A stretch of DNA of 64,000 nt from Methanomassiliicoccus sp. (GTDB lineage: Archaea; Thermoplasmatota; Thermoplasmata; Methanomassiliicoccales; Methanomassiliicoccaceae). The notes beneath the pieces are model-generated. The model was not told the origin of the DNA. It ran no database searches and was given only the letters and a program-made list of their open reading frames with translations. Within the stretch, counting starts at the first letter, position 1; the number at the start of each line of letters is the position of its first letter. The stretch lies in contig JAAYAX010000013.1 in NCBI GenBank assembly GCA_012719175.1, positions 62,001 through 126,000 of the forward strand. The letters run 5' to 3'. The translations under genes and the position numbers were made by a program. Positions 34,574 through 40,784 of the stretch are shown in pieces.

Positions 34574-35689
34574 TCAGCCAGAAGCACGGATCATCTCCAC
34601 GATGGCGTCCCCAGCCTGCCTTGTATTGAGCTTGCCTCCCATATCCGCAGTGACCAACCTTTGGTCCATGGCCCTCTTCACCGCCCATTCGATGAGCTTA
34701 CCGAGGTCCGGACGGCCCAGCTGATCAATCATCATCTTGGCCGCGAGGATGGCGGCGATAGGGTTGGCTTTTCCCTGTCCCGCGATATCAGGTGCGGAAC
34801 CGTGAACGGGCTCGAACATGGAGACCCCATGGGGATTGATGTTGCCCGATGCGGCCACTCCCAGTCCCCCCATGATCTCCGCCCCCAGGTCGGTGAGTAT
34901 ATCGCCGAACATGTTGGGGCAGGCCACGATACCAAAGCGCTCCGGAGACCTCACCAGGGCCATGGCCATGGCATCAACGTACATGAACTCCACGGGGATG
35001 CCATACTCCTCCGACTTCTGCTTGAAGATCCTCCTCCATAAATGGTACAGGTGGGTGCATATGTTGGCCTTGTCCGCGGCGGTGATCTTCTCCACCCCCC
35101 GGTTCCTGGCCATCTCGAACGCGTAATCGGCGAAGCGCTCGATGCCCTTGCTGGACATTATCCCTACCTCATAGGCGAACTCATAGTCGGAGGAGGATGT
35201 GGCCTCGACCTTGAGGTCCAGATCATAAAGGTGCCGCCTTATCGTGATCGTGGAGGTCGGTTCCTTCTTTTGGAAGGAGCCGCCCGCGCCCATGTAGAAG
35301 TCCTCGGTGTTCTCCCTCAAAAAGGTGATGTCAAAATCCCGCTCCCTCTTAAATGGAGTATATGGGTGCCATGACCTTGACGGACGCATGTTCACATACT
35401 GATCGAAACGTGTTCGCATGGTGATGAGGATCCCCTTTTCGAGGATGCCCGGAGCGACCCGGGGGTCACCTATGGCCCCGAAATAGATGGCATCTTTCTT
35501 TCCCAGGCGATCGATGTCCTCTTCGGTGAGCAGGTCCCCGGTCCGAAGGTACCTCTCCGAACCGATGGGGAACCACTCCCACTCAATGGAGAGCGATTCG
35601 ACCTCTGCTGCTGCATTCAGGACCTTGACCCCTTCAGCAATCACCTCTGGCCCGATGCCATCTCCAGGTACCACCGCGATCTTGTACAT
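34574..35689 (-). CDS. leuB: Isopropylmalate/isocitrate-family decarboxylating dehydrogenase (paralogue 1)
   Basis: 371 residues, NAD(P)-dependent beta-decarboxylating dehydrogenase. Motifs: [14 protein letters not shown], the substrate arginines in TRFDQYVNMRPSRSW, catalytic YEFAYE and KANICTHLYHLWRR, and the cofactor loop HGSAPDIAGQGKANP. It probably acts on 3-isopropylmalate, but homoisocitrate (coenzyme B, AksF) or 3-methylmalate are alternatives. A paralogue lies at 36008-37120. Its own promoter (AAATTATA on the minus strand near 35730) sits about 40 bases upstream, so it can be transcribed apart from leuC-D. Confidence 0.8.
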   Translation of the reverse strand: MYKIAVVPGDGIGPEVIAEGVKVLNAAAEVESLSIEWEWFPIGSERYLRTGDLLTEEDIDRLGKKDAIYFGAIGDPRVAPGILEKGILITMRTRFDQYVNMRPSRSWHPYTPFKRERDFDITFLRENTEDFYMGAGGSFQKKEPTSTITIRRHLYDLDLKVEATSSSDYEFAYEVGIMSSKGIERFADYAFEMARNRGVEKITAADKANICTHLYHLWRRIFKQKSEEYGIPVEFMYVDAMAMALVRSPERFGIVACPNMFGDILTDLGAEIMGGLGVAASGNINPHGVSMFEPVHGSAPDIAGQGKANPIAAILAAKMMIDQLGRPDLGKLIEWAVKRAMDQRLVTADMGGKLNTRQAGDAIVEMIRASG

Positions 35690-36007: not shown

Positions 36008-37120
36008 TCAGAGCCTACGGATCTCCGCGGCCACCGCGTCACCGACCTCATGGGTCTTGGCGCTTCCTCCAAGGTCACGGGTATATATGCCCCTGTCAAG
36101 GGTGGCTCTCACAGCCTTCGTGACCAGGTTCCCCAGGTCCCTGCGGCCAAGGTTGTCCAGCATCATCTTCCCCGCCAGGATGGTGGCGAGCGGATTGATC
36201 TGGTCCAATCCCTTGTATTTCGGGGCGCTGCCATGGACCGGCTCGAACATCGAGATCCCTTGAGGGTTGATGTTGCCGCCGGGTGCCAGACCCAGACCCC
36301 CGGTTACCTCCGCTAGAAGGTCCGTAAGAATGTCCCCGAACATGTTGGGGGTGGCCACGATCCGGAACTTGTCCGGGTTCTTGACCAGGGCCATGGACAT
36401 GGCGTCAACGAACATGAAGCCGAAATCCATGCCGGCCTGCCGGCACTTCTCCGACCACACGTCCCGCCACATCCCATAGATGTCACTGCAGACATTGGCC
36501 TTGTCGATGATGGTTATGTAGTTCTCACCGACCATCTTCGTATAGTCGATCACGAAATCTGCGAAGCGTTCGGTGTTCTTCCGGGAGAGCAGGCCCACCT
36601 GGTACGCGTACTCGTCCACTACAGTGGATGAGGCCTTGACGTCGATGCTCATATGGTAGAGGTGCCTATCGATATCGAGCGTCCTCGAGTCCACCTGGTC
36701 CATGAACCTTCCACCAATTCCCACATAGAAATCTTCAGTGTTCTCCCGGAACACATCGATGTTAAAGTCCACATCCCTCTTCAGTCTCCCGAACGGCTTC
36801 CACATGGGCGCCGGACGGTGGTTTATGTACTGGTCAAAAGAGAAGCGCAGAGCCAGGAGGATGCCTTTCTCCAGAATTCCTGGTCTGACCCTATCATCCC
36901 CGGTCGCGCCCAGATAAATGGACTCGAACCTCCTCAGTTCCTCCACGTCCTCTGAGGTGAGGAGCTTGCCCGTGCTCAGATAACGTTCCGCATCTATCTG
37001 GAACTCTTGAAAGTCGAACTGGATGGAGTGGTTCTCGGCCAGTGCGTTCAAGACCTTCAATCCCTCATCGATCACCTCGGGTCCGATGCCGTCGCCCGGT
37101 ATCACAGCTACTTGATGCAT
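36008..37120 (-). CDS. Isopropylmalate/isocitrate-family decarboxylating dehydrogenase (paralogue 2)
   Basis: 370 residues from the ATG at 37120, chosen because GGAGG lies eight bases upstream. Motifs match the family: [61 protein letters not shown]. It overlaps leuD by 13 bases, so it is co-translated with the isomerase subunits. Since a second copy follows, one may serve leucine and the other isoleucine (citramalate route) or coenzyme B chain extension (AksF, expected in methanogens). Operon position makes this one the likelier partner of LeuCD; sequence alone does not decide. Confidence 0.8.
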
Positions 37121-37602
37121 TTTTTTTCCTCCCTGATCTTGGCCATCAGCCCCCCTCTGTCCATCAGGTCCTTGATGAACGGAGGGAACGGGGCGAAGCG
37201 CCATTCCATCCCTTTGGTCTCGTTCACGATCTTACCGTTCTGAACATCGATAGTAAGGACGTTACCCTCATCAGCATCTATCTTGCACTCGATGGGCAGC
37301 ATGCCGACGTTGATGGAGTTGCGATAGAATATTCGAGCATAGGACTCTGCGATCACGCAGGTGATCCCCGCCTGCTTGATGGCACGGGGCGCATGCTCCC
37401 TCGAGGACCCGCAGCCGAAGTTCTTCCCGGCCACGATGATGTCGCCCTTGTTCACGCTCTTGGCCATCTCCGGACGGACCCTCTCGAAGAGGAAATCGCC
37501 CAGGCAGTTGTTGTTCTGGCTGATGAGCCTTTCCGCGGGTATGATCTGATCGGTGTCCACATGGTCATCGAAGCGCCATGCTCTCCCCCTTAGTTCGTTC
37601 AC
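37108..37602 (-). CDS. leuD: Isopropylmalate isomerase-type small subunit (swivel domain)
   Basis: About 164 residues from a GTG overlapping the leuC stop codon by four bases. It is the aconitase swivel domain: WRFDDHVDTDQIIPAERL at the start and CGSSREHAPRAIKQAG near residue 60. With LeuC it isomerises 2-alkylmalates (isopropylmalate, citramalate or homocitrate). The family of archaeal small subunits includes both LeuD and AksE (HacB); the loop before the CGSSREHAP motif, which sets specificity, reads YLGDFLFER-like (CLGDFLFERVRPE), so the substrate needs testing. Confidence 0.88.
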   Translation of the reverse strand: MNELRGRAWRFDDHVDTDQIIPAERLISQNNNCLGDFLFERVRPEMAKSVNKGDIIVAGKNFGCGSSREHAPRAIKQAGITCVIAESYARIFYRNSINVGMLPIECKIDADEGNVLTIDVQNGKIVNETKGMEWRFAPFPPFIKDLMDRGGLMAKIREEKKCIK

Positions 37603-38855
37603 TGTATCGCCTCCGGTGCCACGATCCTTCCGGCCACAGCGCTCGCCGCCACCACTGCTGGCCCGGCGAGGTACACCTCCGAATCCTTGTGCCCCATACG
37701 GCCGATGAAGTTGCGGTTGGTGGATGACACGCACTTCTCCCCTTTGGCTAGAACGCCCATGTGTCCCCCCAGGCAGGCCGCGCAAGTCGGTCCGGAGACG
37801 AAGGCCCCCGACCGTACGAACTCGGCCAGCAGCCCCTCCTCAATAGCTTGCTGGTACACCTGCGTAGAAGCAGGTACCACCACCATTCGCACGTCCCGAT
37901 GCACCTTCTTGCCCTTCATGACCTGGGCAGCGATGCGTAGGTCCTCGATCCGTCCGTTGGTGCACGAGCCCAGGAACGCCTGGTCGATGGCCACGTCCAC
38001 CTCTGCCGCAGGCTTACCGTTGCTGGGAAGATGGGGAAGGGCGACCATATAGTCGAGAGCGCCGAGGTCGTACTCCAGCGTACGTCCGTACACCGCCCCG
38101 GGATCGGGCGCCACCGGCGTGTAGCTACCTCTGACCTTTCCTTGAAGGTATGAAACGGTTCGCTCATCGCATGGGAATATCCCCGCCTTTCCCCCGGCCT
38201 CGATGGCCATGTTGCTGACCGTGAGACGGTCGGAGACCGGGACGCTGGCCACCCCGACGCCGGAGAACTCGAAGGCCTTGTAATTCGCTCCATCGACGCC
38301 GATGTCGGTGATTATCCTGATTATCAGGTCCTTGCCGGATACCAGCCCGCGGAACCTACCGCTGAGGCGGACATCGATGGCCTCGGGCACCTTGAACCAC
38401 AGGCGTCCCTCAGCAAAGCAAGCGGCCGCCTCGGTGCTGCCGATGCCCGTGGAAAAGGCGTTTATCCCTCCATAGGTGCAGGTGTGGGAGTCGGCCCCCA
38501 CTATGAGGCGCCCGGGTGCGGCGAATCCCTCGTCCACCATCACCTGATGGCAAACACCCCCCCTGCCTACCTCGAAGTAGTGGGGAAGGGAATACTTCTG
38601 GACGAAGCGTCTCATCTCCGCGGCCTGCTCGGCGGAGGCGACGTCCTTGTTGGGGACGAAATGATCGGGGATGAGCACGATCTTGTCCTTCTTAGGCTCG
38701 CATTCCAGTGACTCGAACTCCTGGAACGCCAGAGGGGCCGTCACATCATTCGCCATTACGTAGTCTATCTCCGCCTCCACGATCTGGCCGGCGTGGGCCT
38801 CCACCCCGGAATGGGCGGACATGATCTTTTCGGATATGGTCTTTGATCCTGACAT
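37599..38855 (-). CDS. leuC: Isopropylmalate isomerase-type large subunit (aconitase domain)
   Basis: 418 residues, the usual archaeal LeuC/AksD length. [4Fe-4S] cysteines are visible in GSCTNGRIEDL and GPTCAACLGGHMG, with the histidine region DSHTCTYGGINAFSTG. It catalyses dehydration/hydration of 2-alkylmalates together with LeuD. It follows leuA by 13 bases and is translationally coupled to leuD. Isoleucine (citramalate), leucine and coenzyme B pathways share this type of enzyme; the neighbouring synthase points to branched-chain amino acids. Confidence 0.9.
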   Translation of the reverse strand: MSGSKTISEKIMSAHSGVEAHAGQIVEAEIDYVMANDVTAPLAFQEFESLECEPKKDKIVLIPDHFVPNKDVASAEQAAEMRRFVQKYSLPHYFEVGRGGVCHQVMVDEGFAAPGRLIVGADSHTCTYGGINAFSTGIGSTEAAACFAEGRLWFKVPEAIDVRLSGRFRGLVSGKDLIIRIITDIGVDGANYKAFEFSGVGVASVPVSDRLTVSNMAIEAGGKAGIFPCDERTVSYLQGKVRGSYTPVAPDPGAVYGRTLEYDLGALDYMVALPHLPSNGKPAAEVDVAIDQAFLGSCTNGRIEDLRIAAQVMKGKKVHRDVRMVVVPASTQVYQQAIEEGLLAEFVRSGAFVSGPTCAACLGGHMGVLAKGEKCVSSTNRNFIGRMGHKDSEVYLAGPAVVAASAVAGRIVAPEAIQ

Positions 38856-38868
38856 CTGAAATCTCCCT

Positions 38869-40455
38869 TCAACGGCTGAACAGGCGGTCCAGAGCTTCCA
38901 TGGTAGAGTCCACGCTGGTCTGAACGATGTCCGTACCCACGGCCTTGCCTATGGACATGGTCTTCTTACCGCCGTTCCTTGATACCCTGACGGTCACCTC
39001 GCAGAGGGAATCGCTCCCCCCAGTGATGGCGCTGAGGCGATATTCCTCAAGGGATATGTCATTACCCATGACCGCCTTGATGGCGTTTATGGCCGCGTCC
39101 ACCGGCCCGATGCCGATGGCGGTGCCGGTCTTCTTCTCCCCATGGACATCTATGGACACCACCGCAGTGGGCGTGGTGTTCATGCCGGTGAACACCGCGA
39201 ACTCCTTGAGCTTCACCTGGTTGACCTCTCTCTTTCCCACGATGTGGGATGCCAGCGCCACAAGCTCGGCGTCGTCGACATCTTTTCCGCCATCGGCGAG
39301 CTTCTTCACCTTGTCCACTATCTGGGCGATCTGCTCATCAGTGATCTCCATGCCATACTCCCTGAGCTTCTCCTTCACGGAGTGGGCGCCCGTGTGCTTC
39401 CCGATGACGATGCTCCTCTGCACCCCCACCATCTCTGGCCCGAAGGCCTCGTAGGTGGAGGGATCGCCCAGCACCCCGTGGACATGTATCCCTGACTCAT
39501 GGGCGAAGGCGTTGTTGCCTATGATGGCCTTGTTGCCCGGAATAGCATAACCGGTCAGTCGGCTGACCAGTTTGGAGGTGGGACCGATCTTGCGGGTATC
39601 AATGGACATCTCCGTGCCGTAGAACGCCATGAGCGATAGGACCGCTTCCTCCAGCGCTGCGTTCCCTGCCCTTTCCCCCAGGCCGTTGACCGTGACGTGC
39701 ATCTGCTGCGCTCCCTGACGGACGGCAGAGATGGAGTTGGCGACGGCCAGACCGAAATCGTCGTGGCAGTGCACCGAGATAGGTACCTTGGTCACGGTCA
39801 TGAGTTCCTTTATCAGGTACTCCATGGCCGAGGGCGAGATCGTCCCTACGGTGTCCGGCACGTTGATCTTGTCCACTCCTGCATTCTGAACAGCGATGTG
39901 CATGTCCTTGAGGAAGTCCAGGTCGGTCCGGGTAGCGTCCTCGCAGGAGAACTCCACGGTAAGGCCTCGCGATTTGGCGTACTCGATCGACTCCACCGCC
40001 TTGGCCATCACCTCGGGACGGGTCATCTTCAGCTTGTGCTTGAGGTGAATGTCCGATGTAGCGATGAACGTGTGCACGTAATCGAGACCACAGTCCGCGG
40101 CCACATCAATATCCCGCTTCACGCACCTCGCCAGGCCGCATATCCGCGATCTCAGGCCGAGCTTGGCTATCTTCCCTACAGCCTCCTGCTCACCTACAGA
40201 GGCTGCAGGGAAGCCCGCCTCGATCACGTCCACTCCCAGCTCGTCCAGGGCCTGCGCTATGATGATCTTGTCTTCCGCTGAGAGCGCTATGCCTGGGGTC
40301 TGTTCACCATCGCGGAGGGTGGTATCGAACACCATTACCCTCGACGGCAGGGTATCGGCCTTGACCACATTGTTGAACTGGCTGGTGTACACTCTCTTTC
40401 GGTCCAGCGGGGGACGGAGGGCTCTAGTTTGGACTGTAGCACTTTGGTCGACCAT
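38869..40455 (-). CDS. leuA: 2-isopropylmalate synthase / citramalate synthase family enzyme
   Basis: About 528 residues from the ATG at 40455 (TGAGGCG about ten bases upstream); a TTG 33 bases earlier is weaker. The HMGL-like barrel shows DTTLRDGEQTPG, the metal motif VHCHDDFGLAVAN and HESGIHVHGVLGD. Residues about 400-528 form the LeuA regulatory domain, which gives product feedback; AksA homocitrate synthases lack it. So this is LeuA or CimA. It is the first gene of leuA-C-D and is preceded by a candidate leader ORF. Confidence 0.88.
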   Translation of the reverse strand: MVDQSATVQTRALRPPLDRKRVYTSQFNNVVKADTLPSRVMVFDTTLRDGEQTPGIALSAEDKIIIAQALDELGVDVIEAGFPAASVGEQEAVGKIAKLGLRSRICGLARCVKRDIDVAADCGLDYVHTFIATSDIHLKHKLKMTRPEVMAKAVESIEYAKSRGLTVEFSCEDATRTDLDFLKDMHIAVQNAGVDKINVPDTVGTISPSAMEYLIKELMTVTKVPISVHCHDDFGLAVANSISAVRQGAQQMHVTVNGLGERAGNAALEEAVLSLMAFYGTEMSIDTRKIGPTSKLVSRLTGYAIPGNKAIIGNNAFAHESGIHVHGVLGDPSTYEAFGPEMVGVQRSIVIGKHTGAHSVKEKLREYGMEITDEQIAQIVDKVKKLADGGKDVDDAELVALASHIVGKREVNQVKLKEFAVFTGMNTTPTAVVSIDVHGEKKTGTAIGIGPVDAAINAIKAVMGNDISLEEYRLSAITGGSDSLCEVTVRVSRNGGKKTMSIGKAVGTDIVQTSVDSTMEALDRLFSR

Positions 40456-40457
40456 AG

Positions 40458-40568
40458 TAATCGCCTCAGGTTGCCCAGGATTCAGCAATGTGTCTAATAC
40501 TCACGCAAAATCAATGCCAGTTTGGTGGCGATGATGCACATTGCTTCGGGCCTCGTTATCGGCGATTA
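40458..40568 (-). promoter_or_regulatory. leuA 5' leader with complementary segment to the ribosome site
   Basis: The box A TTATATA (minus strand, 40586-40592) predicts a start near 40562, giving a leader of about 105 bases. GGCGATTA over the leuA ribosome site (40458-40465) is the exact complement of an eight-base segment at 40561-40568, at or just before the predicted start. If transcription begins a few bases earlier than estimated, the two could pair and hide the site. The candidate leader ORF lies between them. Confidence 0.35.
40494..40541 (-). CDS. Candidate branched-chain leader peptide upstream of leuA
   Basis: A 15-codon frame reading MCIIATKLALILREY, ending in TAG 38 bases before the leuA ATG. 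It starts with ATG and has GAGG nine bases upstream. Six of 15 residues are Ile or Leu, a pattern resembling the leu/ilv attenuation leaders of bacteria. Too short for routine gene finding and not proven; see the finding. Confidence 0.35.
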   Translation of the reverse strand: MCIIATKLALILREY

Positions 40569-40784
40569 TCGGAATCCTATATCGGTATATAATCTTTAGT
40601 TTCAAGAGCGGAAGGAGACAAGGGAACCTATCTCGCCCTAATGATAGGTGAGAGCGGTCCGGCAAACGTTAACTTGATATTTTTTCATGTGAGCGTACAA
40701 GTTCACAGCTCTCTTCAATATTAGGCCAATGTCCGGATGGATGACCTGAATAATTAATAACAGAGAGATGCCTAAAACTATTGA

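Follow-up and report, generated by a model that had tools for sequence, protein, structure and literature searches.

The stretch of DNA analysed here, which we call the window, comprises 64,000 nucleotides from Methanomassiliicoccus sp. and carries a very short ORF ahead of leuA. The question raised by this locus is whether the ORF (hereafter uORF) encodes a leader peptide that links leuA expression to the supply of leucine, or is a reading frame that occurs by chance.

The uORF and the leu gene cluster

The initial annotation described a 15-codon ORF with its own GAGG ribosome site, ending 38 nt before leuA and having Ile or Leu at six of its 15 residues. All of these points hold when the sequence is read directly: the codons, from 40541 to 40494 on the minus strand, are ATG TGC ATC ATC GCC ACC AAA CTG GCA TTG ATT TTG CGT GAG TAT TAG, and the ATG of leuA, at 40455, follows the TAG after a gap of 38 nt. 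On the 3' side of the uORF, leuA, leuC, leuD, and leuB are tightly packed (Table 1). An N-terminal extension of LeuA to a mechanical TTG start at 40488 was rejected because the frame upstream of the ATG is not retained in relatives.

The TATA-like element TTATATA is retained in the two closest relatives (L005 and L006) despite their diverged flanks. According to the initial annotation, a transcription start of leuA lying 3' of 40541 would refute the leader. Judging from the usual archaeal spacing, the TATA-like element places the expected start at about 40563, 5' of the uORF, although this is inferred and the start was not measured.

Two observations concern the wider locus and the source genome. 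A tandem pair of leuB-type dehydrogenase genes (34574-35689 and 36008-37120) lies downstream of leuACD. The genome, rated 99.6% complete, has no match to ilvD (PF00920), which is present in the four congeners searched; an assembly gap is a possible explanation.

Table 1. Features of the uORF, its leader and the leu cluster, in window positions
Feature	Position	Strand	Basis or remark
TATA-like promoter element TTATATA	40586..40592	minus	read directly
Shine-Dalgarno-like GAGG of the uORF	40551..40554	minus	9 nt 5' of the uORF ATG
Enclosing stem, 5' arm GCCC	40548..40551	minus	pairs with 40473-40476; RNAalifold on family alignment A2, pair counts, centroid fold of the window leader
AGCAATGTG, spanning the uORF start codon	40537..40545	minus	complementary to 40484-40492; window fold
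uORF, MCIIATKLALILREY-TAG	40494..40541	minus	15 codons, read directly
Leu codon CTG of the uORF	40520-40518	minus	
Leu codon TTG of the uORF	40514-40512	minus	
Leu codon TTG of the uORF	40508-40506	minus	
CACATTGCT, 3' of the uORF stop	40484..40492	minus	core CATYGCT; alignments A2, A3
Enclosing stem, 3' arm GGGC	40473..40476	minus	shortly 5' of the leuA Shine-Dalgarno; same basis as the 5' arm
leuA Shine-Dalgarno GAGG	40464..40467	minus	invariant in 15 sequences
leuA, 2-isopropylmalate synthase	38869..40455	minus	ATG start; NCBIfam NF002085, E=7e-199
leuC-type large subunit	37599..38855	minus	NF001614, E=1.6e-170
leuD-type small subunit	37108..37605	minus	start approximate; TIGR02087, E=5.1e-52, above cut-off
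leuB-type dehydrogenase	36008..37120	minus	best NCBIfam NF002898, E=1.6e-91, under its cut-off

Conservation and coding character of the uORF

We sought leuA orthologues at four ranks, from the genus through family and order to the class, and then read their leaders. After curation, a short leucine-rich uORF is found in the same slot in 85 of the 91 leuA leaders of Methanomassiliicoccales, and no recognisable uORF is present in the six others (L173, L177, and L197-L200). Leucine content was one of the criteria by which the curated uORFs were chosen, and with related sequences these counts are not independent events. Examples from most families of the order are MSINVLDWNLILRLL, MVSNGLHRTLILRLL, MNKHILANILLLRH, MRHTSIISLLLLLH, and MNVAWLRLQLILRLVPASLL, and those from family f5 are MIFAQHAGLLLIG, MICNAFIGLLLLLE, MIFKLKTELILLK, MICTLISELRLLI, and MVDVHDVPDILLL. 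We infer that f5 is probably Methanomethylophilaceae, given its many genera and small genomes. The same arrangement precedes leuA in other orders of Thermoplasmata (MTRNSAGPLLLLPLGLLILA, MPHKSNGLLILPLGLLILA, MANKSNELIILPLGLLLLA, and MDAKRSSASILPLQLLLLLC).

Among the 85 uORFs, 79 start with ATG and 6 with GTG, and 74 show a Shine-Dalgarno-like site. In the alignment of relatives that the initial annotation had proposed, the start, the stop, and the leucine run persist throughout the order, with codons changing synonymously. Conservation is limited to the leucine run rather than extending over the whole peptide, of which the N-terminal half is variable in sequence and little variable in length. 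In most uORFs the leucine window opens at codon 7-11, and in the longer, GTG-started ones at codon 15. The leader ORFs of L007-L010 (genus g1) and of L225-L226 appear to be leaderless, with a GTG or ATG about 25-35 nt past the TATA and no Shine-Dalgarno.

When an automatic criterion is applied instead of curation, the uORF is found in 77/91 leuA leaders, compared to 9/112 control leaders (ilvC 1/27, ilvD 3/27, hisG 0/30, and trpE 5/28) and 14.7% of shuffled leaders. For trpE (examined for Trp codons), hisG (for His codons), ilvD, ilvC, and the leuA paralogues, neither scanning nor visual inspection of the leaders gave a comparable conserved uORF. Leucine runs seen upstream of leuA in bacterial loci were isolated cases and were treated as chance. 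In 24 non-overlapping within-genus pairs, the uORF frame shows 30 synonymous codon changes, compared to 18.0 expected, and no in-frame stop, whereas the two shifted frames of the same pairs show 15 and 18 synonymous changes for 13.3 and 19.2 expected, and contain stops. Because the sequences are related and the uORFs were picked partly for leucine, these conservation and codon figures are support rather than proof. Taken together, the comparison shows that the uORF of the window is not a chance ORF and that it evolves as a coding sequence within genera; the initial caveat that it could be chance therefore fails, given its presence in 85/91 leaders, the 77/91 score against 9/112 controls, and a synonymous excess confined to the uORF frame.

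The composition of the uORFs points to leucine in particular. Leu makes up 27% of uORF residues and Ile 14%, and all six Leu codons are found, interchanging with one another. In family f1, TTG accounts for 65% of the Leu codons in uORFs and for none of the 566 in leuA, and in f5, CTT accounts for 60% in uORFs compared to 11% in leuA; with one sequence per genus, the enrichment of rare Leu codons gives a Fisher p of 3e-12. The uORF of the window has three Leu, two of them encoded by TTG. Most uORFs of f1, f2, f3, and f6 share an L-(I/L/F)-L-R core; g29, f4, and f5 have another residue in place of the Arg, and the uORF endings vary (LREY, LLLLH, LLLIG, LILLK, and LRLLI). The branched-chain (Ile and Leu) signal initially proposed therefore needs narrowing to leucine, as the residue frequencies and the lack of such a conserved ORF in the ilvC and ilvD leaders indicate.

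RNA structure and the proposed control of leuA

The clearest structural evidence comes from the alignment of f5 (A1, 38 sequences). A stem S1 forms between ACCGTC, close to the uORF ribosome site on its 5' side, and GACGGT, shortly before the ribosome site of leuA. Its pairing reaches 97.8%, compared to 19-50% when the partner is slid, and it shows 23 double-change cells against 5.6 after shuffling, with none of 500 shuffles scoring as high. A stem S2, detected de novo, joins GGTTTG to CAAACC around the leuA Shine-Dalgarno and start, with 100% pairing (228/228 cells) and some covariation. Since columns 128-130 are common to both stems, S1 and S2 cannot both be complete. The comparison thus shows in f5 the layout of a translational attenuator, in which the uORF lies inside a stem that excludes another locking the leuA Shine-Dalgarno; such exclusivity was not shown for the family of the window.

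The stems are not the same from family to family. In the family of the window, the GCCC/GGGC enclosing stem has four pairs and is 93.3% paired, and the stem locking the leuA Shine-Dalgarno is weaker than in f5; an S2 equivalent sought in f1, f3, and f6 was not above control. In f28, the leuA Shine-Dalgarno lies in a hairpin that is 93.8% paired, without covariation. AGCAATGTG and CACATTGCT form nine pairs in L001 and ten in L006. The CATYGCT core after the uORF is retained in most families of the order, and in f6 and its relatives pair counts on alignment A3 show that the uORF start pairs with it, the pairing score across the genera of f6 being 18.71 observed against 15.64. The folding energy of the window leader is no better than that of shuffles (z -0.55), and partition-function folding with ribosome positions masked left the accessibility of the leuA Shine-Dalgarno unchanged, so that the leuA switch rests on covariation alone.

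Two further elements were observed in these leaders. In f28 (L211-L221), nine pairs can form between the ribosome site of the uORF, AGGCTAGGA, and the last codons of the same uORF, TCCTAGCCT, possibly giving an autoregulatory hairpin. Directly upstream of the TATA, some leaders of the order (e.g. L133 and L137-L149) carry TAGCAAYG/TAGCAATGATTWWATA, an inverted repeat of CATYGCT, which might be a promoter element or an operator.

The comparison shows that the uORF is coding in nature, that it carries a leucine run and rare codons, and that alternative stems exist. The reading that we consider likely is that the uORF is a translated leader peptide serving via its leucine codons, and that the leader RNA controls leuA in cis, most likely as a translational attenuator. 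Leucine sensing, the direction of the switch, the size of its effect, and expression itself are inferred, as there are no expression, ribosome-profiling, or leucine-response data. In this model, when charged leucyl-tRNA is ample, ribosomes would traverse the uORF and start on it again and again, covering the 5' arm of the enclosing stem; the locking stem would then form, with little translation of leuA. When leucyl-tRNA is scarce, a ribosome would stall some 8-13 codons into the uORF, at its leucine codons, and prevent new starts, which would leave the 5' arm free, allow the enclosing stem to form, and release the leuA ribosome site. The attenuation initially suggested is here refined to an apparent control of leuA translation, with the Shine-Dalgarno in a stem and no terminator-like hairpin in a bacterial-type scan, as opposed to classical transcription attenuation.

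The strongest competitor keeps leucyl-tRNA sensing by the leader peptide and places the output in transcription, with uncoupling of ribosome and polymerase leading to premature termination before leuA, at a U-rich intrinsic stop or through FttA. Transcription and translation are coupled in archaea, many f5 leaders have T5 directly before leuA, and the uORF itself fits either output. Nevertheless, the T run is not retained in f1 or f6, neither strand of the window leader contains a terminator-like site (in a scan of bacterial type that does not cover archaeal terminators), and the position of the covarying S2, around the Shine-Dalgarno and start of leuA, favours translation. We regard this alternative as unlikely, without excluding it. 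There is less room for a TnaC-like arrest, in which the nascent peptide would stop the ribosome upon binding leucine or another signal, so that the peptide sequence is read rather than tRNA charging. The L-(I/L/F)-L-R core of most f1, f2, f3, and f6 uORFs would suit it, but this core is not retained (g29, f4, and f5 lack the Arg, and the endings are diverse), and a peptide sensor has no need of the enrichment in rare synonymous Leu codons.

We find it equally hard to favour an interpretation in which the conserved blocks serve as DNA operators, bound by a leucine-responsive transcription factor, and the uORF merely happens to lie there. Recurrence of TAGCAATG directly upstream of the TATA and of CATYGCT after the uORF in several families speaks for operators, which might coexist with a leader peptide; however, the frame-specific synonymous excess, the leucine enrichment, and the stem arms that change in sequence yet stay complementary are left unexplained. 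A chance ORF is all but excluded: a similar ORF does occur in 14.7% of shuffled leaders, but the comparison refutes this explanation, with the uORF at one position in 85/91 leaders and evolving like coding sequence. The translational attenuator remains our preferred reading. Persistence of the leucine-rich mini-gene across the order and beyond raises the possibility that archaea, like bacteria, gauge leucine shortage through ribosomes that stall on a leader peptide. The leader-peptide reading of the initial annotation is thus supported, whereas stalling under leucine shortage is still unproven.

Other archaeal leaders and known systems

A second build may exist in the class examined in Nitrososphaerota (44 genomes; 30 leuA leaders, L349-L378). 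In 21 of the 30 leaders we observe GGTG-N5-7-ATTGCY, about 100-175 nt upstream of leuA, and in 20 of these 21 the frame from that ATT runs for 25-47 codons to a stop 15-17 nt before leuA. Nearly all such AUU frames end in a Leu/Ile run (e.g. IAWSRELAPHILRVTDPIEKSAPSLRILLLLW). These frames could be leucine leaders with a non-standard AUU start, a possibility inferred from sequence only. In the subgroup L360-L369, GGTGAGCAAAGTGARCCAACTCGAATAA replaces the ATTGCY element, a Leu run (LALLLL, LVLLLL) still lies directly before leuA, and the start of the frame is undetermined. On a bolder reading, towards which we lean with some reserve, leader-peptide control of the leucine-synthesis genes is widespread in archaea and has arisen or been kept in at least two phyla with different builds, one mostly ATG-started, of 12-21 codons, inside a covarying stem (Thermoplasmatota), the other of 25-47 codons from a conserved AUU, with the leucine run ending 15-17 nt before leuA (Nitrososphaerota).

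An archaeal leucine leader that extends over a class and combines covarying alternative stems with rare control codons opens archaeal attenuation to direct testing. The uORFs are also a practical marker, since annotation easily misses such short genes and mis-assigns true leuA starts. To our knowledge, leader-peptide attenuation has not been demonstrated in archaea; none was found in the open-access literature searched, and subscription journals cannot be excluded. No Pfam or NCBIfam leader family matches the archaeal uORF. Rfam 15 gave no covariance-model match in the window region up to E=5, and only one sub-threshold chance match in 16 relatives. An Rfam motif named leuA-Halobacteria is also reported.

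Ribosome stalling on leader peptides of amino-acid genes is textbook bacterial regulation. Like the bacterial leuL-type leader, the archaeal uORF is a short ORF that precedes leuA in a leu operon, has its own ribosome site, and carries a run of rare Leu codons. It differs in lacking a terminator hairpin with a U run, as far as a scan modelling only bacterial terminators can tell, and in having a second stem that encloses the leuA Shine-Dalgarno. The actinobacterial LEU element also combines a leucine-run uORF upstream of leuA with an RNA structure touching the leuA Shine-Dalgarno (PMC1262725). At the base of a pseudoknot, that element pairs its leucine codons with the Shine-Dalgarno of leuA, and the reported mutation data oppose codon sensing (PMC1262725). 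In the consensus folds of the archaeal leaders, by contrast, the leucine run is left unpaired, also with respect to the leuA Shine-Dalgarno, and the arms of the enclosing stem lie on either side of the uORF. With translational attenuators of the erm/cat type, the archaeal leader shares the principle that a ribosome stalled on the leader ORF would free a locked Shine-Dalgarno; the signal would be a shortage of leucyl-tRNA instead of an antibiotic, and the archaeal case is made by covariation only. Whether archaeal and bacterial leaders reflect shared ancestry or repeated invention is the question that these comparisons raise.
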